From Deltaproteobacteria bacterium (lineage in GTDB: Bacteria > Myxococcota_A > Polyangia > Haliangiales > Haliangiaceae), in contig JAHDIH010000001.1 in the NCBI GenBank assembly GCA_020630875.1, positions 124,001 to 188,000 on the forward strand: a DNA stretch of 64,000 bases, given 5' to 3'. Below, one piece after another: positions 12,406 through 29,268 of the stretch (positions are counted from its first letter, which is position 1; each line of letters begins with the position of its first letter). The notes beneath the pieces were generated by a model. It made no database searches and was not told where the DNA came from. It saw only the letters and a program-made list of their open reading frames with translations. Position numbers and translations under genes: made by a program.

Positions 12406-14244
12406 ATGAGTAACAATTTAACTACACACGCTGTACTAATCGCTAATCGTTCGACTTTCGTAGACGGCAACGCCCTAACCGACGCTGCGATTGCAAAAAT
12501 TCAATGCCAACTCGACGTCCTAGAAAGATGCGGCATTCGAGACGTTTGCATTGTGGAATCTGCTCAGGCAGATGCCCTGGCAGATAAACTGGGTCTGAGA
12601 AACAGCAACCTTAGAGTCACCGTGCTTTCCAACAGAGGATGGCAACGAGCTTCTGGCGCCGCTCTGCTCGTCGCTGAGTCATTTATCGAGAGCGCCAATG
12701 GCCCGGTTCTTGTGGTGCCGAATGACAGGCTGCTTGATGCTTCGGATTTGAGCGAGCTCATGGAGTTTTTGTCAGATACCGATGACGCTGTGATTGCCGT
12801 GTCGGTACGAGACGACAGTCAAGCAAGCGATGACGACCGAGTGCAGTCGAACATGGTGGACCGACTCACCGACATTGGCGAAGATTTGGACACCTACGAT
12901 GGCTTGTTCACCGGTCATGCCCTTGTTCGTCACTCTATCTGCAACCAACTTAGAAAGTACGTCAACCCGCGCTTGGCTCAGGGCGTATCACAGCTGCCGC
13001 GTGTTCGCGTCAAATGCGTTTCACCTACGTGGTCCCCTTCGTCAGTAGATTCATTAAAACAAGAGGTTGATGCGATCCTTCAGCGTAAGCGTCATCCTCG
13101 TTACAAGCTATTCAACCCGGGCCCGGTGAACACCACGGCAGGTGTGAAGTCTGCGCTGGTTCACCCCGACGTCTGCCACAGAGACTCTGACTTTACCGAA
13201 CTCATGGTATCTCTTGGCAGTAAATTGCGGCGAATCTACCGAGCGACCACGGATGAGCACTCGGTGGTTGTAATTACGGGAAGCGGTTCGTCGGCGATGG
13301 AAGCTTCCATCACATCGTCGGTTGCAGAAGATCGCGCAATACTAGTGGTTGATAACGGTGCGTTTGGTGAGCGAATGCGCGAAATCTGTTCTATTCATGG
13401 TCTAAAAACCATACATCTGCGCTATCCGTGGGGAGAAATGGTGAAAGCTCGCGATATCGAGCGAAAGCTGCAAAAGCACCCAGAGATTTCTGTAGTGGCA
13501 ATGGTCCACCATGAGACGTCTGTAGGACTTCTCAATCCGGTGACGGAAGTGGGTGCTCTGTGTCGTAAGTACGACAAAATGTTTTTAGTGGATGCCGTAT
13601 CGTCGCTGGGAGCGGAGGAGATAGACGTGGTGCGTGACAATATTGATATTTGTTATGCCAGTTCTAACAAATGCCTCCACGGTATCGCGGGTGCTGCCTT
13701 CGTCTGCGTATCCAACCGAGCTTGGAAAAGATTGGATAAGATTCCCCCGCGGAGCATGTACCTGGATCTACGGCGCTACAGAAAATACATGAACGAGCTA
13801 GCGCAAACGCCATTTACTCCTGCGGTGTCGACCTACTTTGCACTGAATGCGGCATGCGACGAGTTTTTGGCCGACGGCCATGACAAGCGCCTTGCTCGTT
13901 ACAAAAGTCTCAATCGTCAATTGCGACAAGGTTTACGTAAACTCGGTGCGTTCGCGTTAACTCACACCGGGCAAGAGTCGCACAGTATCGTGACTTGCAG
14001 CGTACCGGACGGAGTCGTATTCGAGCATCTCTACGAAGCAATGAAACTTCGTGGCTACATTATCTATGGCTGCAAGTCGGTACTTGCTGGCAAATTCTTT
14101 CAAGTTGCCAACATGGGAGACATTGATTCGGAAACGGTAGCGACCTTCCTCGTAGCTCTTGAAGAGAGTATTGAACAAGTAAAAGTTGTACAAGTTGCCC
14201 CGCGCAAAAGAGTCACCAGGCTTTTTTCAAATTCAGAAGCCTAG
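12406..14244 (+). CDS. phnW: Nucleotidyltransferase-like/2-aminoethylphosphonate transaminase fusion
   Basis: A 612-residue fusion. Residues ~245-600 are a PLP-dependent class V aminotransferase of the 2-aminoethylphosphonate:pyruvate type (PhnW/AEPT): LFNPGPVNTT, the CHRDSDFTELM block, TGSGSSAMEAS, MVHHETSVGLLNP, VDAVSSLGAEEIDV and SSNKCLHGIAG, whose Lys422 should bind PLP. Residues ~1-235 have the size and strand pattern of an NTP-transferase domain, as in PntC-AEPT proteins that make CMP-aminoethylphosphonate for phosphonolipids. However, the glycine-rich LAAGxGxR loop is replaced by LIANRSTFVDG and the final W-x-D-x-D motif by WSPSSVDSL, so the N-domain may be inactive or divergent. It could act in phosphonate lipid synthesis or in AEP breakdown. 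No pepM or ppd gene lies in the window. Confidence 0.88.
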   Translation: MSNNLTTHAVLIANRSTFVDGNALTDAAIAKIQCQLDVLERCGIRDVCIVESAQADALADKLGLRNSNLRVTVLSNRGWQRASGAALLVAESFIESANGPVLVVPNDRLLDASDLSELMEFLSDTDDAVIAVSVRDDSQASDDDRVQSNMVDRLTDIGEDLDTYDGLFTGHALVRHSICNQLRKYVNPRLAQGVSQLPRVRVKCVSPTWSPSSVDSLKQEVDAILQRKRHPRYKLFNPGPVNTTAGVKSALVHPDVCHRDSDFTELMVSLGSKLRRIYRATTDEHSVVVITGSGSSAMEASITSSVAEDRAILVVDNGAFGERMREICSIHGLKTIHLRYPWGEMVKARDIERKLQKHPEISVVAMVHHETSVGLLNPVTEVGALCRKYDKMFLVDAVSSLGAEEIDVVRDNIDICYASSNKCLHGIAGAAFVCVSNRAWKRLDKIPPRSMYLDLRRYRKYMNELAQTPFTPAVSTYFALNAACDEFLADGHDKRLARYKSLNRQLRQGLRKLGAFALTHTGQESHSIVTCSVPDGVVFEHLYEAMKLRGYIIYGCKSVLAGKFFQVANMGDIDSETVATFLVALEESIEQVKVVQVAPRKRVTRLFSNSEA

Positions 14245-14251
14245 CGCCTGT

Positions 14252-15013
14252 TTAAAACAACACCGATAGTTTTGCCGGGTCATCAGTCATGATGGCGTCG
14301 GCACCGAGATCGATTAACGATTGAGCGGTTGCTATGTCGTTGATGGTCCAGAAGTGAACTTCCATGTTTAGGTCGTGGCACTTCTCGATAAGTTTTCCAC
14401 TTGCAAGCGTCACTGGTCCTTGCTTGGTCGGAATCTGTGCCGCGCTGCCAAAGTTATCGATTCTCTTTAGTACAAACTTGGGAGATAGATAAAGCATGGC
14501 CACTTCTGCTGGCGCCAAAGAGGTCCGTCCCGAGTAGCCTTGGGCCCGTACCCAACGCAACGTTTTGTAGGAAAAGCTCGCAAGCGTGACCCTCTGAGAG
14601 GCGTGAGCTGCGTCAATGATTTCGATGACCGATCGAACTGCTTTTTCCGTATGGGCTTTGATATCGATGTTCAGCGGGACCTCTGGAAAGCGCTCTAAAA
14701 CCTCAGATAGAAGCGGTATCGTGAACGTCTCGTCGGCAAACGGTCTAACCCCAGACGGCGTGCAAAAGTTTGCTCCGACGTTCCATTTTTGAAGCTCGGA
14801 AAAATCTGTATGCGCGACCACTGCGGATTTTCCGGCCATCCGTTGTCCTGTGTCGTCATGACAGACTACCACGTGACCATCTCGCGTGAGATGGACATCC
14901 ATTTCAAGAGCATTCGCTCCAACTTCTATTGCCCTTTGAAAAGAGGGAATCGTATTCTCAGGATACTCGGCAGCGGCTCCGCGATGGGCATATAGCAGTG
15001 GCATGACTGCCAT
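14252..15013 (-). CDS. Glycerophosphodiester phosphodiesterase
   Basis: A 253-residue GDPD-family TIM barrel that hydrolyses glycerophosphodiesters to glycerol-3-phosphate and an alcohol. The signatures are present: AHRGAAAEYPENTIPSF (catalytic His and Arg), ALEMDVHLTRDG (metal-binding Glu and Asp) and VVCHDDTGQR (second His). The end reads VHFWTINDIATAQSLIDLGADAIMTDDP, the classic C-terminal GDPD block. There is no signal peptide, so it is likely cytoplasmic, like UgpQ. ATG 15004 (MPLLYAHRG) is an alternative start. Convergent with the AEP-transaminase gene, 7 bases apart. Confidence 0.95.
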   Translation of the reverse strand: MAVMPLLYAHRGAAAEYPENTIPSFQRAIEVGANALEMDVHLTRDGHVVVCHDDTGQRMAGKSAVVAHTDFSELQKWNVGANFCTPSGVRPFADETFTIPLLSEVLERFPEVPLNIDIKAHTEKAVRSVIEIIDAAHASQRVTLASFSYKTLRWVRAQGYSGRTSLAPAEVAMLYLSPKFVLKRIDNFGSAAQIPTKQGPVTLASGKLIEKCHDLNMEVHFWTINDIATAQSLIDLGADAIMTDDPAKLSVLF

Positions 15014-16668: not shown

Positions 16669-19600
16669 CTACGTACAAATCAGTGAGGTGTCTTCAAGTT
16701 TATTGGTCTTAGCGCTACGACGCACTGCAAGAAAGACGGTTAGAAGTACCAGGAACCAGTTAGAGCCTTGTGAGCCGCTGCAGGAGTCACCATTTCTGAA
16801 CTGTTCTTCTTCATCGTCGATACCGTTGCCATCAGCGTCACTGTCGCAAACGTCACCTAGTCCATCCTCATCCAAGTCAGCTTGGTCCTCATTCGAATCA
16901 AGTCGGCAGTTGTCGGTTTCATCGCTGACGGTATCGTCGTCTGAATCGGTATCGATAAAGTCCGGCACGCCATCTTCGTCTGAGTCCCGTGGTTCCGTAG
17001 CAATTTTCCGGTCACCGGCTTCAAAGATGTCATCAAGCGTATCGTTGTCTGAGTCGGTATCAATGTAATCTGGGATGCCGTCTTCATCGCTGTCTGCCAT
17101 ATCAGATGCGGCGACCAACGGCACCACGCCAGTAGCTGTCACCACGTCGTACGCCACTTCAAGAGGGTTCACTTCGTACCGATCGGGTAGGGTATCGCCA
17201 TCGGCATCTGTGTCCCTAAAGTCAGGAGCTTTGTCGATGTCGCTGTTTCTTGCGTAACCAGGATTATTGTTCTGAAAGTTGTTGTCCGCAACATGGCATG
17301 AACTGTCTGGAAAGAGGCCCGACTCGATACCATCACAGATCCCGTCGTTGTCCGAGTCATCGTCAGCCCAGTCTGGCACTCCATCATTGTCTGTATCTGT
17401 AAGCTCTAGACCATAGATACCGTTTTCGAACATGCTTTCAAGAGAATCTCGCATGCCGTTGGCTCCGTAAGGTCCATCGACCATTCCATTGCCTTGTTCG
17501 TCCGGAGCTTCATGTCCTGCTTCTTGGGAGTCAAAGATATTATCGCCATCCGCATCTAAGTCGATCGCATCGAGTAGGTTGTCACCGTCTGTGTCGAACT
17601 CTCTGTTGAATGGTAGACAATAGCCGTTGTCGACAGTGTCGCAGGAAACTTGTGGTGGCAATCCGTCGCCACGATTGTAGGCGTCATGGTAATTGGCAAT
17701 GCCGTTAAAGTCGGCATCACCGAATGGATCGATTCCGATTTGGCTGTCCAGGTAGTTGGGTATTCCGTCGTTATCGGCATCGGCGTCGTTTTCATTTGCG
17801 ACTCCATCGCCATCTGCATCGTTGGAATCGCAATTGCCATCACCATCCCAATCCGGACCGTCGAAGGTGGTATCCGCTGGTCCCCCGGAAAGAGAGCAAT
17901 CATCACAACCATCTGCATCTGCGTCGCCACAAACAAAACGGTTTAAGTCATCTGGGTCACCGGCAGTCGCTTCTACTCCATCGTTGTCTGCATCTGGGTC
18001 GCCGGCATTGCAGAGTCCGTCAAGGTCGTGGTCCCCCCCATTGGCTCCGTTGCTGTCAAAGTGAGGAGCAAACGCCCCGTTGGTACAATCATCGCAGGTG
18101 TCGTTGTCGCTGTCTTTGCATTCGAACTTGTTGTGAGGAGCCGAGTCCTCGACGTCATCTACGGCGTCGTTATCATCGTCAGGATCACCATCATCGCATA
18201 GTCCGTCGTTGTCAAAGTCTGGTCCGTCGTTGTTCGAATCGTACAAACCGCTGGTACAATCGTCGCACAAGTCTCCATCTGTGTCTGAGCACTCCAGTGG
18301 ATTTAGCGGTGCACTATCGTCGCTATCTGGCACCGTATCACCATCCGAATCGTTGTCACCCAGGTCGCAAATGCCATCACCATCCACGTCTGGTCCGTCG
18401 TTATTCACATCCCCTCCGCCGGTATGTACGAGCGTACAATCATCGCAGCCATCTCCATCTTGGTCTTGGCATTTCGTTTTATCAAGAGGCGCAGCGTCCG
18501 CAGTGTTGGCTACGCCATCTCCATCGCTATCGCTATCGCATACGTCGCCAAGGCCATCGCCATCATAGTCTGGCTGGATGCCTGTAGCGGAATCTGCAGG
18601 ATTTAGCGCTGTCGGACAGTTGTCGTCAGATTGACATACTCCATCACCATCACTATCGTTGGGGCTGTCTTGAGGACAAGCGTCGCAGGCGTTACCTTCT
18701 CCGTCGCCGTCATCATCGGCTTGCGATTGGTTGGGATCGTACTCGCAGTTGTCTTCGTTACCACAAATGCCGTCACCGTCAGCATCATTCGCTGGATCTT
18801 GCGGGCACGTATCGCATGCATCACCAATGGTGTCTTGGTCGCCATCCTGTTGGCTGAGATTGGCTACCAGTGGACAATTGTCCAAGGAATCTTCCAAAGA
18901 ATCATTGTCGTCGTCGTGGTCTTCTCCTGAGTCTTGGCAACCGTCTTGGTCGTTGTCTGTGGAAAGGCTGGACAGCCATCCTACTGCGGCAGTTTGGCAA
19001 TTGGTCTGCCCGACGGGGCAGTGCTCATCGCAGAGATCGGCAGGGTTCGGAACGCCATCATTGTCGATATCACCATCGCAAGCGTCACCTTTGCTGTCAC
19101 CATCTAGGTTAGCTTGATCTTCGTTGGCAACGTCCAGACAGTTGTCGTTAGCATTATTGATACCATCGTTGTCCAGATCTTCGTCTTCCGCTCCCCAGCA
19201 CCCGTCGCCGTCAGGATCTTGCCCGGTAACAAACGGAGGAGTTGACGTAGGGCAATGGTCGTAAATATCTGAGATACCATCGTTATCATCGTCGCTGTCG
19301 CCGGCATCGCACGTACCATCGCCATCGGTATCAGTACCATCGTTTGCGATACTTGGTGGTCCCCCCGTCACGGAGCAATCATCGCAAGTATCGCCCTCCT
19401 GGTCGCGGCAAATAAACTCATTAAGGGGGGCAAGATCAACTCCATCTTCAACTCCATCGTCATCGTCATCGGCGTCGCAATCGTTACTTAGCCCATCGTT
19501 ATCGGTGTCTGGAGAAAAAACGTAGGGATTGGCATCGTTTGGATTTTCGCAGCCGTCACCATCGATATCTGTGCTGCCAATATCGCAGATGCCGTCGCCA

Positions 19601-21285
19601 TCGGTGTCGGGGCCATCGTCCGAAGGGGCACCGCCCGAGCCATTGGCGCCGGTTCTGCTGCAGTCGTCGCAGGTGTCGTTGTCAGAGTCTCGGCAGCGGA
19701 ACGAATCAAGTGGGTGGCTGTCGTTATCATTCAAGACACCATCACCATCTTTGTCGTTGTCCAATAAGTCGCAGATTCCATTGCCGTCAGTATCGACGCC
19801 GTCGTTGGAGGCCTCCGGGGGACCTCCCGTTACCGAGCAGTCGTCGCAGCCGTCTCCGTCCGCATCAAGACAAATGAGTTCATTCAGAGGCTCAAGGTCG
19901 CTGGCGTCAAGGACGGTGTCGTTGTCATCGTCAGGATCTTGACTGTCCGGGATGCCATCACCATCAGTATCCGTGGTTTGGCAGCCGTTGTCCCAATCTG
20001 GGGAGTTGGTATCAAGCCAGTTGGCAACGGAAGGCGAAGCCGTAAGACAACCATTGTTCTTCAGATAAAGAGGGGATAGGGTTGAATTTTCATAGTTCGC
20101 TGGTACGGGGCCAGAGAAGTTATTTTCCTCTAAGTTCAGCTCTATTGAGCTTGTTACCGAAGGAGCTTGGGGAAGAGGTCCGGAAAGAGAGTTGCCGTAG
20201 AGATTGAGTCTAGCAATTGGCGCCAGTTGGTAAAGAGTATCTGGATTCAGTTGCCCGATAAGGCCGTTGTCAGGTAAGTCTACTATGAAGAGTACAAGGC
20301 TCGTAGCATTGTTGAGTGTTACGCCGTGCCACTGATTAATGTCAGGGGTTTGCAGCCAGTTGGTATTGTTGGTCCAATTGGGACCGCCTGATTCGACGTA
20401 GAGTCTGACCAAAGCTCGGCACTGTGCGTGTGTCACAGTGATCGCATGGTGGCCGCAATTGAATCCGGCGTTAGGTTCGCGATCGTCTTCGTCAATGGCG
20501 CAGGGCACGCCGTCTTGATCTTGGTCCGTACTGTAGTTACAAAGAAGGTCTCCCTGCCCTTGGAATAGCCGTGGCCCGTTGGCGTGAAACAGTACCGCAA
20601 AATCAGGGAGTGGGCCTAATTGGTTGCTGCCTGGAGCGGTAGAACCTTGTGGAGGATGGACAGGGCCACTGCCGTTGTCTCCGGCATTGTGCGCGCAATT
20701 GTCGTTACCTGCCGGATTGCTACCTCCGCCCACCGGACAGTTCATGGGACGAGTGTCGTCAGTTGGAGATTCTACAAATCCAAATTGTTGCCCCCCTGAG
20801 GACAGGCTGACGCCATCGTTGTCTGCGTCAAGGTCTTCCGCACCGTCAGGACAGCCATCGTGATCAAAATCATTGGCGAGTCCGGGAATGTCGATGCAGT
20901 GGTCGTAACAATTTAAAACACCATCATTATCGTTGTCATCTTGCGGATCTAACGCGTTTGGCATCCAAGGACAGCCGTCATGATAGTTGGCGATGCCATC
21001 TCCATCAACGTCCCAATCGCAAGGGTCACCAACGCCATCGCCATCGTGATCTCGCTGATTAGGGTTGGGCATTTCGTCGCAGTTGTCGTCGACGGTGGCA
21101 ACGGCATCGCCATCGCAGTCGTCGATATTGACGTTGGCGAATTCCAAACAGTTGTTCCCCTGTATTGCGTTGTTGGTAGGGTTGTTTTGCTGCTGGTATC
21201 GAGCGGGAATAGGAGTGTCTGATGAGGGTTGTGGGGTTCCACAACCTACGGCCACCAAGACGAAGCACATTAATCCCCCACGCAT
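16669..21285 (-). CDS. Giant TSP3-repeat/leucine-rich-repeat surface protein
   Basis: A 1538-residue surface protein. The N-terminus MRGGLMCFVLVAVGCG has a lipobox (AVGC). Residues ~50-280 and ~435-1490 consist of dozens of thrombospondin type 3-like calcium-binding repeats (D-x-D-x-D-G, e.g. DTDGDGICD and DNDNDGVLNC), which build an extended Ca-dependent stalk. Between them, about residues 285-430, lies a plant-type leucine-rich-repeat block (ALVRLYVESGGPNWTNNTNW, LNLYGNSLSGPLP). The C-terminus is Cys1502, then a hydrophobic stretch ~1510-1521 (WFLVLLTVFLAV) and RR at 1522, as in MYXO-CTERM sorting tails, but with 15 further residues. Carrying both a lipobox and a sorting tail is odd. Cell-surface or secreted adhesin-like role inferred. 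Confidence 0.85.
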   Translation of the reverse strand: MRGGLMCFVLVAVGCGTPQPSSDTPIPARYQQQNNPTNNAIQGNNCLEFANVNIDDCDGDAVATVDDNCDEMPNPNQRDHDGDGVGDPCDWDVDGDGIANYHDGCPWMPNALDPQDDNDNDGVLNCYDHCIDIPGLANDFDHDGCPDGAEDLDADNDGVSLSSGGQQFGFVESPTDDTRPMNCPVGGGSNPAGNDNCAHNAGDNGSGPVHPPQGSTAPGSNQLGPLPDFAVLFHANGPRLFQGQGDLLCNYSTDQDQDGVPCAIDEDDREPNAGFNCGHHAITVTHAQCRALVRLYVESGGPNWTNNTNWLQTPDINQWHGVTLNNATSLVLFIVDLPDNGLIGQLNPDTLYQLAPIARLNLYGNSLSGPLPQAPSVTSSIELNLEENNFSGPVPANYENSTLSPLYLKNNGCLTASPSVANWLDTNSPDWDNGCQTTDTDGDGIPDSQDPDDDNDTVLDASDLEPLNELICLDADGDGCDDCSVTGGPPEASNDGVDTDGNGICDLLDNDKDGDGVLNDNDSHPLDSFRCRDSDNDTCDDCSRTGANGSGGAPSDDGPDTDGDGICDIGSTDIDGDGCENPNDANPYVFSPDTDNDGLSNDCDADDDDDGVEDGVDLAPLNEFICRDQEGDTCDDCSVTGGPPSIANDGTDTDGDGTCDAGDSDDDNDGISDIYDHCPTSTPPFVTGQDPDGDGCWGAEDEDLDNDGINNANDNCLDVANEDQANLDGDSKGDACDGDIDNDGVPNPADLCDEHCPVGQTNCQTAAVGWLSSLSTDNDQDGCQDSGEDHDDDNDSLEDSLDNCPLVANLSQQDGDQDTIGDACDTCPQDPANDADGDGICGNEDNCEYDPNQSQADDDGDGEGNACDACPQDSPNDSDGDGVCQSDDNCPTALNPADSATGIQPDYDGDGLGDVCDSDSDGDGVANTADAAPLDKTKCQDQDGDGCDDCTLVHTGGGDVNNDGPDVDGDGICDLGDNDSDGDTVPDSDDSAPLNPLECSDTDGDLCDDCTSGLYDSNNDGPDFDNDGLCDDGDPDDDNDAVDDVEDSAPHNKFECKDSDNDTCDDCTNGAFAPHFDSNGANGGDHDLDGLCNAGDPDADNDGVEATAGDPDDLNRFVCGDADADGCDDCSLSGGPADTTFDGPDWDGDGNCDSNDADGDGVANENDADADNDGIPNYLDSQIGIDPFGDADFNGIANYHDAYNRGDGLPPQVSCDTVDNGYCLPFNREFDTDGDNLLDAIDLDADGDNIFDSQEAGHEAPDEQGNGMVDGPYGANGMRDSLESMFENGIYGLELTDTDNDGVPDWADDDSDNDGICDGIESGLFPDSSCHVADNNFQNNNPGYARNSDIDKAPDFRDTDADGDTLPDRYEVNPLEVAYDVVTATGVVPLVAASDMADSDEDGIPDYIDTDSDNDTLDDIFEAGDRKIATEPRDSDEDGVPDFIDTDSDDDTVSDETDNCRLDSNEDQADLDEDGLGDVCDSDADGNGIDDEEEQFRNGDSCSGSQGSNWFLVLLTVFLAVRRSAKTNKLEDTSLICT
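16790..19980 (-). repeat. TSP3-encoding degenerate repeat tract
   Basis: Roughly 3 kb of degenerate Asp/Gly-codon repeats (read on + as atc-gtc-gcc type triplets) encoding the C-terminal TSP3 array of the giant surface protein. The low-complexity DNA creates several long spurious open frames on both strands. Such tracts recombine easily, so repeat number may vary between strains. Confidence 0.85.
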
Positions 21286-26524: not shown

Positions 26525-27670
26525 CTAAAGATGGATGATTATTTCGCTTGGGTCTAGCTCTTTCCTAAGCAACTTGGTGTATTCGTCCATTGGATCGTCG
26601 CTCATCGCGGGAAAACTGACCTCGTCAAGTGGGCTAGAATCAATATCGAGGTTAGCCGATAAAGATATGCTGGCTCCTTCCTCATCAATGCGTCCTAGTC
26701 TGATATTGCAGTCGTTGTCGGAGCTTTCGAGTAGTCGCTGCAACACATCACATAACTCACTTAGTTTATGTGGACGAGTGTACAGCGACGGCTCCATTAC
26801 TTCTTTGGGCCTAGCTTTAAACTCTTGAAGCTCATGGTCTGTTAGCAACATTCCATCACTTGCCTGAGAAGCAGAGACGAACAAGTCTCGGTCGCACGAA
26901 GCTATATCAGTGAGATGATCGGACTCGACAATCAGTACGTGTTCAATCGACTCGTCTCGCTTGATACTCCAAATTTCCACAAGGTCAGGAGTGGACTCTT
27001 CATGAAGTGCCAGATAGGCGGCATGGACCGCATCTTGTAGTCTTTTGAACTTAAAACCAACTTTCAATTCCGTTTCGCCAATGCGGCGCATTCTCAGCGA
27101 CAGAGAGGTTACGATACCAAAGCGTCCCATGCTTCCACTAAATATGGCTCTTGGATCTGGGCCACTAGAGTGCGGTGGCATTACTTTGGTTCTGATTACA
27201 TGACTGCTGGGAAGGACTGATGTCAACGCGAGAATGCTGTTTTCAAAAAAGCCTAGTCTTGGATTCGCTTTGCCAGAGGTTCGGACCGCAAGCATGCCTC
27301 CAATCGTCGATTCAAGCATTGCTTCCGGGAAGTTGCCTATCGTTAAGTTTCTATTCTTTAGAACCTTTTTTAGTTCTTGTCCGGTAATCCCTGCTTGAGC
27401 GGTCACCACCATAGACTCTTCATCGAGCCTAGTTACTTCATTCATTCTCACTATAGAAACGAACACGATACTGTCCATTGAGAAGTCGGGTTGGTATCGT
27501 TCTTTGCCAACGGGAAGAACTTTCATCTTCAGTTGCTGAGCGGCTTGTAACACCGAAGATACTTGGCTAGTGGATGATGGGTATACCGTGATGCAGTTGT
27601 TGTCTTTGCTGCTGACGTGTTCGATGCCAACAATGCTCGCAAAACGTTGTACTATTGTTCTGTTAGTCAT
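26525..27670 (-). CDS. FAD-binding oxidase (PCMH-type), second of pair
   Basis: A 381-residue flavoprotein of the FAD linked oxidase (PCMH/VAO) family. The FAD fold shows as ITVYPSSTSQVSSVLQAAQQLKMKVLPVGK, VTAQAGITGQELKKVLKNRNLTIGNFPE, STIGGMLAVRTSGKANPRLGFFENSILAL and GSMGRFGIVTSLSLRMR. It lacks the His-rich HHHGVG block of its neighbour, and the substrate-binding half is short and divergent. It may be an electron-transfer or regulatory partner, like GlcE beside GlcD. Its ATG overlaps the stop of the upstream AGPS-like gene (ATGA), so both are made from one mRNA. Confidence 0.82.
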   Translation of the reverse strand: MTNRTIVQRFASIVGIEHVSSKDNNCITVYPSSTSQVSSVLQAAQQLKMKVLPVGKERYQPDFSMDSIVFVSIVRMNEVTRLDEESMVVTAQAGITGQELKKVLKNRNLTIGNFPEAMLESTIGGMLAVRTSGKANPRLGFFENSILALTSVLPSSHVIRTKVMPPHSSGPDPRAIFSGSMGRFGIVTSLSLRMRRIGETELKVGFKFKRLQDAVHAAYLALHEESTPDLVEIWSIKRDESIEHVLIVESDHLTDIASCDRDLFVSASQASDGMLLTDHELQEFKARPKEVMEPSLYTRPHKLSELCDVLQRLLESSDNDCNIRLGRIDEEGASISLSANLDIDSSPLDEVSFPAMSDDPMDEYTKLLRKELDPSEIIIHL

Positions 27671-29268
27671 GATTTAAACCCCAGCTTTCCAGGATTCATA
27701 ATCCCATGAGGGTCCATGGTCCGCTTCAGTGCTTCTAAGATACGAAACGACTCGCGATGTTCGTCTCTCATGTACGGTGAGCGAACCAACCCAACGCCAT
27801 GGTGATGACTAATGCTTCCACCAACCTCGCAAGTAGCTTGCATTGCGTCGCTCCACAATTGGTCGTAGAGGGCATAGGACTCCTCGAGAGAATCGGCTGA
27901 AGCTGCGAAGGTGAAATAGATAGAGCAACCCTCTTGATAGGCATGTGAAAAGTGAGCCATTACGAACGCGTGTTTTTGTATTGCCTTTCTGACCCTACGA
28001 TAAAGATCTGGAAGTTGCGCCCACGTCGATACCACTTCCATTGTGTCGACAAACGCACCATTGGAAAAAACAGGGGACATTTTGTAAGAAACGGAGTACC
28101 TGCGTTTTAGCCAATCCAGCCCAGGGCCTTCTCCTAAGTCTTCGCCGCCCACCGCTAAAACCACTTTTCTTGCTATTTCTGCCTCAACCTCGGTTCTTAT
28201 TCTACTGCCTTCGAAACCGATAATCATGCGGCACCCCTTCTTAGCAACTTTAGACGCAACGACATCAACTGCTGGTGACCAAGAAGGAGATGTTGACAAA
28301 AGAGAAGTAAAGACCGTGCTTTTAGCCTTATCCAAAAGGGTGGGGATAAAGGAGGCGAACTTTGACTCTTGGCTCATTTTTTCCAGCGATACCGGGCTAA
28401 GTTCTTTTTCCCCGTCGTCACCGCCACTCGACTTAAAAAGATGGAGCAACGTATCCATTTCATCGTAGAGTCTTATGACTGCAGGCTTCAACCCTTTTTG
28501 CATGAGTACTTTTATAGCGTTGGTACCTTCAGCGACTGAGTCAAAGTGATATCCCCTGAGAACTCTAAGAGCGGGGTTGGCAGATAGTTTTAACTTTGCC
28601 GAACAGATGATTCCAAAGGTACCTTCACTGCCCAGTATCATCTGCGTCCAGTTGGGACCTTTGTGTCCGCGTGCATTGGGCGTGGTGTCGACGATATCTC
28701 CGCGGCCTGTCACCATCCGCAATCCCAGAACTCGGTCGTCTGCTTTTCCGTATTTGGTGGACATTTGTCCTGCCGCGCGCGTTGCCATCCACCCTCCCAC
28801 GGTTGAGCAATAGATGGAGGAAGGAAAATTGCCAAAGGTAAGGCCGCGATGTTGAAGCTGCCGTTCAAATCGCTCTCCATTCATCCCCGCTTCGACATGA
28901 CATTGCCGAGAGACCGTGTCGACGGATAGCATTTTTTTCATACGTTTCATGTCCAAAGAGATGCCACCGCTTATGGGAACCGCCCCCCCACACACTCCAC
29001 TACCGCCAGCATAGGGAGTGATTGGAATTTTCTGCTCGATTGCAATTCGCACAATAGCAGCGATTTCGCGTTCGCTCTCAGGCCATAGAACCGCATGTGG
29101 CGGAGTCCCCATGTATTGACCCCGTTGTTTTGCTATCAGTAGACGGGGCCACATATCTTTCGCGTGGTTTTCCAAATCTAGAGCATCTACAGAGATCCGT
29201 TTGGGCCCCACAATACGTTCCAAGGCTGCGAAAGACTTGTCGCTGATTGCCCCAGGCTTCATAGGCAA
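27667..29268 (-). CDS. Alkyldihydroxyacetonephosphate synthase-like FAD oxidase
   Basis: A 533-residue FAD enzyme close in layout to alkyl-DHAP synthase (AGPS), the ether-bond-forming enzyme of plasmalogen synthesis. The FAD-binding loop is ITPYAGGSGVCGG, followed by GLTFGNFPSSIYCSTVGGWMATRAAGQMSTKYGKADDRVLGLRMV and GSEGTFGI. Residues ~480-486 carry SHHHGVG, the active-site histidine block of AGPS. The C-terminus LKRTMDPHGIMNPGKLG is the usual FAD-oxidase ending. Myxobacteria are known to make ether lipids, which fits. An alternative is a D-lactate or glycolate-type dehydrogenase. First gene of an overlapping pair of FAD oxidases. Confidence 0.85.
   Translation of the reverse strand: MPMKPGAISDKSFAALERIVGPKRISVDALDLENHAKDMWPRLLIAKQRGQYMGTPPHAVLWPESEREIAAIVRIAIEQKIPITPYAGGSGVCGGAVPISGGISLDMKRMKKMLSVDTVSRQCHVEAGMNGERFERQLQHRGLTFGNFPSSIYCSTVGGWMATRAAGQMSTKYGKADDRVLGLRMVTGRGDIVDTTPNARGHKGPNWTQMILGSEGTFGIICSAKLKLSANPALRVLRGYHFDSVAEGTNAIKVLMQKGLKPAVIRLYDEMDTLLHLFKSSGGDDGEKELSPVSLEKMSQESKFASFIPTLLDKAKSTVFTSLLSTSPSWSPAVDVVASKVAKKGCRMIIGFEGSRIRTEVEAEIARKVVLAVGGEDLGEGPGLDWLKRRYSVSYKMSPVFSNGAFVDTMEVVSTWAQLPDLYRRVRKAIQKHAFVMAHFSHAYQEGCSIYFTFAASADSLEESYALYDQLWSDAMQATCEVGGSISHHHGVGLVRSPYMRDEHRESFRILEALKRTMDPHGIMNPGKLGFKS

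Follow-up and report, generated by a model that had tools for sequence, protein, structure and literature searches.

A predicted dead IPCT-related domain fused to a Gln-type aminotransferase, probably in CDP-alcohol head-group metabolism

The 64,000-nucleotide stretch of DNA analysed here (the window) contains a gene in which a nucleotidyltransferase (NTase)-like domain is fused to a class V aminotransferase. An earlier note matched the fusion order to that of the PntC-AEPT proteins, which make CMP-aminoethylphosphonate for phosphonolipids. In this study, we asked whether the locus belongs to phosphonate metabolism or to another pathway. The fusion is a single ORF of 612 aa with an ATG start at 12406-14244 (+); ORFs in GC-rich contigs were picked by a simple composition score. 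Its NTase-related domain occupies residues 1-230 (12406..13095) and its class-V aminotransferase-like domain residues 232-595 (13099..14190), which confirms the domain order given in the earlier note. The top family for residues 232-595 was TIGR03301 (PhnW-AepZ; E=1e-97), at 327.5 bits against a curated cut-off of 360.8, and the TIGR02326 score (236.3) was also below its curated cut-off (400.8). Residues 1-229 alone gave only a weak NTP_transferase match below the cut-off (E=0.006), and no significant match to the N-domain alone was found in the PDB by phmmer. AlphaFold2 modelling from two sequences, the window protein and its relative L004, reached a pLDDT of 44, and the model was set aside. 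The genome of the window (G000; 17 contigs, 96.9% complete, estimated 6.1% contaminated) carries the fusion gene as a single copy, and its next two matches, on contigs C6 and C9, are distant paralogs with equal E-value and identity. Places of equal score and identity on contigs C6/C9 and C7/C13 suggest a redundant assembly.

The motifs quoted previously for the N-domain are present and degenerate. LIANRSTFVDG (residues 11-21; 12436..12468) stands in place of the LAAGxGxR..PK signature loop, and WSPSSVDSL (residues 209-217; 13030..13056), beginning with W209, marks the site of the lost ancestral WxDxD. In VPNDRL (residues 104-109; 12715..12732), Asp107 and Arg108 are retained, and relatives have RGDRP or a near variant here. 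The window protein lacks the PntC signature GXG(T/S)RX4-8PK with Arg15 and Lys25, and of the catalytic signature and metal aspartates of CTP:inositol-1-phosphate cytidylyltransferase (IPCT) it keeps D107 alone. It has been reported that alanine mutants of Lys25 and Arg15 in Tde-PntC have less than 10% activity (PMC6697681). When a profile of eight degenerate N-domains was compared with a profile of seven less degraded fused N-domains (hhalign, profile-profile), they matched over 199 columns with 99.8% probability (E=1e-28), in agreement with the nucleotidyltransferase ancestry proposed before. The less degraded profile found IPCT (2XME, 1e-32) and the IPCT/DIPP synthase (4MND, 5e-32) in the PDB, and PntC (6PD1) was missing among its matches at 1e-10; the N-domain is therefore IPCT-related and not PntC-type. 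The N-domain of L004 alone matched that of 6PD1 at 8.5e-8. The degenerate profile matched GlmU at 1e-4 and IPCT 2XME directly at just 5e-3, and its IPCT-type homology over the domain length was found with the less degraded fused domains as a bridge. In an NTase tree, the fused domains joined weakly (support 65/24). An origin of the dead domain as a recent duplicate of a LicC-like NTase was rejected because the LicC-like NTases form their own clade (100/99). Sequence comparison thus indicates that the N-domain descends from an IPCT-like cytidylyltransferase and has lost its catalytic residues.

The same degenerate fusion was found in eight related genomes (G001, G008, G009, G011, G012, G016, G021 and G030). 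It is full length in seven, with about 49-54% identity across nearly the whole protein, and is divided over two contigs in G021; these alignments mark it as a conserved family and not a local oddity. The equivalents of Arg15 and Lys25 and the aspartates of WxDxD are missing in all eight aligned degenerate members, and no catalytic residues were found at shifted positions. The sole catalytic residue that persists in the degenerate N-domains is the central acidic D107 (Glu in one relative), the Asp that the earlier note thought might be kept. Invariant in the eight degenerate members are R108, D160, T169-G170-H171 (12910..12918), N187-P188 and W209. Among the 19 full-length fusions, three (L004, L015 and L016) keep the whole catalytic set and are essentially intact, with GxGxR, PK, the MxD aspartate and WxDxD; at one secondary position L004 has Glu instead of Asp, and it keeps the other tested residues. 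The N-domains of L013 and L019-L025 are partly decayed, and L013 already shares GDR and SGHAL with the degenerate clade. L014, L017 and L018 are aminotransferases whose ORFs contain no fused NTase domain.

We then considered why a dead domain is kept. The degenerate clade and the other members had the same ratio of N-domain to C-domain identity (0.647 in each). The N-domain dN/dS was 0.09-0.12 within one genus, at a nearly saturated dS, and 0.30-0.54 within a second. Since the ratio is equal in both groups and dN/dS is low, the N-domain does not drift freely, and the dead half is under purifying selection. The N-domain could be a decaying relic with no role, as the varying degree of catalytic loss across the family and the three ORFs without the domain would suggest. 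However, relatives having the complete N-terminal coding region retain the full-length frame, dN/dS is well below 1 in the tested pairs and the identity ratio equals that of less degraded members, and we consider a relic very improbable. Alternatively, the N-domain may have become a new ligand-binding or catalytic site, in which R108, T169-G170-H171 and D160 would make up a pocket, for a nucleotide or a lipid precursor, with a part in regulating the enzyme or channelling its substrate. The invariance of these residues, of NP187-188 and of W209 in the eight degenerate members is consistent with such a neofunctionalised domain, as are the GDR and SGHAL motifs of the partly degenerate L013, but at a pLDDT of 44 the residues lack reliable structural placement and their conservation could reflect folding; we regard this pocket as a tentative proposal. 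The likeliest role of the N-domain is that of a dead domain kept as a scaffold, as the earlier note had suggested.

In the aminotransferase half, the PLP residues are kept. Asp396 (13591..13593), which is predicted to pair with the pyridine nitrogen of PLP, and Lys422 (13669..13671), the predicted Schiff-base lysine, are conserved in the alignment; their roles are presumably those of class V enzymes generally. Position 566 (14101..14103) is Gln in all 23 family members, within the motif FQVANMG, whereas its equivalent is Arg in 12 of 12 paralog rows and in five aligned structures (1M32, 6PD1, 2DR1, 7E7G and 9KK8). Arg is also found there in the pepM-linked L156 and L157, and Gln in the standalone aminotransferases L155 and L158-L162 from a phylum sample of 210 genomes. 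The C-terminal Arg of these aminotransferases binds the substrate carboxylate or phosphonate, and we take Arg340 of PhnW to be this residue and to make the phosphonate/carboxylate contact. That this Arg is lost suggests that the substrate or the donor lacks the usual anionic anchor. A tree that included PhnW (1M32), the T. denticola AEPT (6PD1) and L039, a pepM-linked AEPT of a relative, placed the family in one group (support 85/89), outside the 100/100 clade of these three. These data mark the family as a separate, Gln-type branch among class V aminotransferases of the PhnW/AepZ-like kind.

We examined whether phosphonate genes accompany the family. PEP mutase had no match in the genome of the window at E 1e-3, and Ppd matches there were weak and far under the cut-off; the absence of pepM and ppd, noted earlier for the window, extends to the whole genome. 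Among the 23 family genomes, PEP mutase exceeded the cut-off in two (G037 and G043) and was absent from 20; the match in G021 (263 bits) was below the cut-off and that in G012 (32 bits) was marginal. Ppd exceeded its cut-off in G043 only, where PEP mutase adjoins a separate Arg-type AEPT. In the 210-genome sample, PEP mutase was found in none of the six family-bearing genomes, and weaker Arg-type matches in G119 and G143 are no more than about 3 kb away from a PEP mutase gene. PhnX, the degradation route searched, exceeded the cut-off in one of the 23 family genomes, G034, where it lies beside an Arg-type PhnW paralog (contig C55) that is not a family member, and had no match in the genome of the window.

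These results bear on two phosphonate readings. The fusion could be a PntC-AEPT with a decayed cytidylyltransferase that still makes AEP for phosphonolipids, its PEP mutase being divergent or missing from the assembly. The PntC-AEPT of Treponema denticola (Tde1415, PDB 6PD1/6PD2) has the same order of NTase and PhnW-like aminotransferase and a similar size, TIGR03301 is the best family match, and a LicC/PntC-like NTase is encoded at another place in the genome and, in relatives, close to the fusion. However, the T. denticola protein has GXG(T/S)RX4-8PK, the Arg in FRIANIG and characterised CMP-AEP synthesis (PMC6697681), whereas in the window protein the dead domain is IPCT-related, position 566 is Gln, the aminotransferase belongs to another clade and the genome lacks pepM. 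Together with the rarity of PEP mutase and Ppd in the family genomes and the separate Arg-type AEPT of G043, these differences make the decayed PntC-AEPT strongly disfavoured; neither membership of PntC-AEPT nor CMP-aminoethylphosphonate as the product is supported. Homology to PhnW would also allow a catabolic transaminase with an inert N-domain that acts, for example, on AEP from prey or the environment. The distribution of PhnX, its position beside an Arg-type paralog in G034 and the neighbourhoods of the relatives, which point to CDP-alcohol chemistry, make such a catabolic enzyme highly implausible.

The gene neighbourhood was then compared among the relatives. In the window, the fusion converges with a glycerophosphodiester phosphodiesterase (GDPD) gene at 14252..15013 (-) (PF03009, E=1e-39), and GDPD also lies beside it in G001, G009 and G012. 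Its other neighbours in the window's genome are unrelated, with no adjoining CDP-alcohol phosphotransferase or NTase. In relatives, a CDP-alcohol phosphotransferase gene overlaps the fusion on the same strand (G011 and G008; loci L046 and L044), adjoins it on the opposite strand (G012 and G030) or lies two genes upstream (L004). The lipid setting proposed before is borne out by the recurrence of GDPD in several relatives and of CDP-alcohol phosphotransferases in many; the gene overlap is linkage and no proof of a common reaction. An intact LicC-like NTase gene, transcribed divergently, lies at most three genes from the fusion in all eight relatives, including G021, and the ORFs of about 245 aa upstream of the fusion in some relatives are intact NTases. 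The homolog in the window's genome (C10:292353-293090) lies between two CDP-alcohol phosphotransferase genes, and its best PDB match was LicC (1JYK, 7e-19), with PntC (6PD1, 4e-13) among the next. Since the LicC-like NTase is also present in related genomes without the fusion, its link with the fusion is one of neighbourhood. At the threshold, no standalone IPCT was detected in G001, G016 and G021, and the match in G011 was weak; given this patchy occurrence, the idea that such an enzyme replaces the dead domain everywhere was rejected. The replacement of the lost activity by another NTase is circumstantial, because the LicC-like enzyme occurs without the fusion and standalone IPCT is patchy.

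Inositol-related genes were also observed. The gene for myo-inositol-1-phosphate synthase (MIPS) is next to the fusion in G038 and G055 (L052 and L053) and lies two genes off in G030 (L047). In the window's genome, contig C11 encodes an IPCT-type NTase, an IPCT/DIPPS-like CDP-alcohol phosphotransferase and MIPS, and homologs are scattered over C10 and C11. At C11:319000-337000 (L118), these three and a likely glycosyltransferase lie within about 5 kb, probably as an inositol phosphate or inositol lipid cluster. Previous work proposed inositol-lipid clusters in Bacteroidetes that combine MIPS with an NTP transferase and a CDP-alcohol phosphotransferase, and reported ceramide phosphoinositol in Myxococcus xanthus (PMC9246714). 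Phosphatidylserine decarboxylase (Psd, PF02666) had no match in the window's genome; it is also missing from G012, G016 and G034, fragmentary in G011 and present in most other relatives. A PssA-like CDP-alcohol phosphotransferase domain occurs in a protein of about 610 aa at C7:284k that has two CDP-alcohol phosphotransferase domains. Near the fusion in the window, 16669-21285 (-) encodes a repeat protein of 1538 aa that is rich in Asp and has many repeats of the DxDxDG type. At 26525-29268 (-), two FAD_binding_4 oxidoreductase genes lie side by side, the larger one also with FAD-oxidase_C; Pfam gives only these generic domains for the gene at 27.7 kb that had been called AGPS-like.

In all four genomes read from a second lineage (G187, G182, G167 and G201), the next gene downstream of one for an IPCT/DIPPS-like CDP-alcohol phosphotransferase encodes a standalone Gln-type aminotransferase. 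These aminotransferases share the Arg-to-Gln change and the neighbouring phosphotransferase, but they lack a fused NTase and have 34-35% identity to the aminotransferase half of the window protein. A second CDP-alcohol phosphotransferase gene lies upstream of the first in all four. The two phosphotransferases and the Gln-type aminotransferase form an operon-like block at L163, L164, L166 and L167, and the blocks at L163, L164 and L166 also hold an FkbM methyltransferase and an O-antigen ligase-like protein.

Taken together, we favour, with a probability of roughly 60%, a Gln-type PLP enzyme of CDP-alcohol phospholipid or glycan head-group metabolism whose dead IPCT-like domain is a structural or binding module, while another enzyme carries out cytidylyl transfer in trans. 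The aminotransferase half would form a PLP-containing dimer of fold-type-I and carry out PLP catalysis. The noncatalytic N-domain would pack on this dimer as a structural module or, alternatively, serve as a binding pocket for a nucleotide or a CDP-alcohol. This role is modelled on the N-terminal module of Mycoplasma penetrans MetRS, in which an NTase-like domain with a loop-closed nucleotide pocket precedes a class V aminotransferase and packs on it; that module differs in that MetRS follows, the aminotransferase serves methionine synthesis and the gene context is unrelated (PMC13215547). A separate NTase may perform cytidylyl transfer, for which the LicC-like enzyme near the fusion is the candidate in the eight relatives and its C10 homolog that in the window's genome. 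CDP-alcohol phosphotransferases would carry out the transfer step, and the fusion protein may take part in head-group synthesis. Among solved structures, the less degraded N-domains are closest to IPCT, either alone (2XME) or fused to a DIPP-synthase CDP-alcohol phosphotransferase (4MND), and phosphotransferases of the 4MND kind neighbour the fusion in relatives. Unlike these, the IPCT-like domain of the window protein is fused to an aminotransferase and is predicted to be catalytically dead. A more specific and rather doubtful proposal is a route independent of PEP mutase: a PLP enzyme that lacks the Arg anchoring a carboxylate or phosphonate would add an amino group to an alcohol-phosphate, a CDP-alcohol or a lipid head group (e.g. 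an inositol-derived or small keto-alcohol phosphate). This would give an undescribed amino phospholipid, with the retired cytidylyltransferase domain binding or channeling the CDP-activated substrate.

By homology alone, this family would be annotated as AEP transaminases and would be read as evidence of phosphonate metabolism in genomes without PEP mutase; its members can be told apart from AEP transaminases by the Gln/Arg position and by the IPCT-type N-domain. Within one fusion architecture, the cytidylyltransferase domains of the family grade from intact to dead. Gln-type aminotransferases recur beside CDP-alcohol phosphotransferases in the genomes read, and the proposal of an undescribed amino head-group is thereby directly testable.
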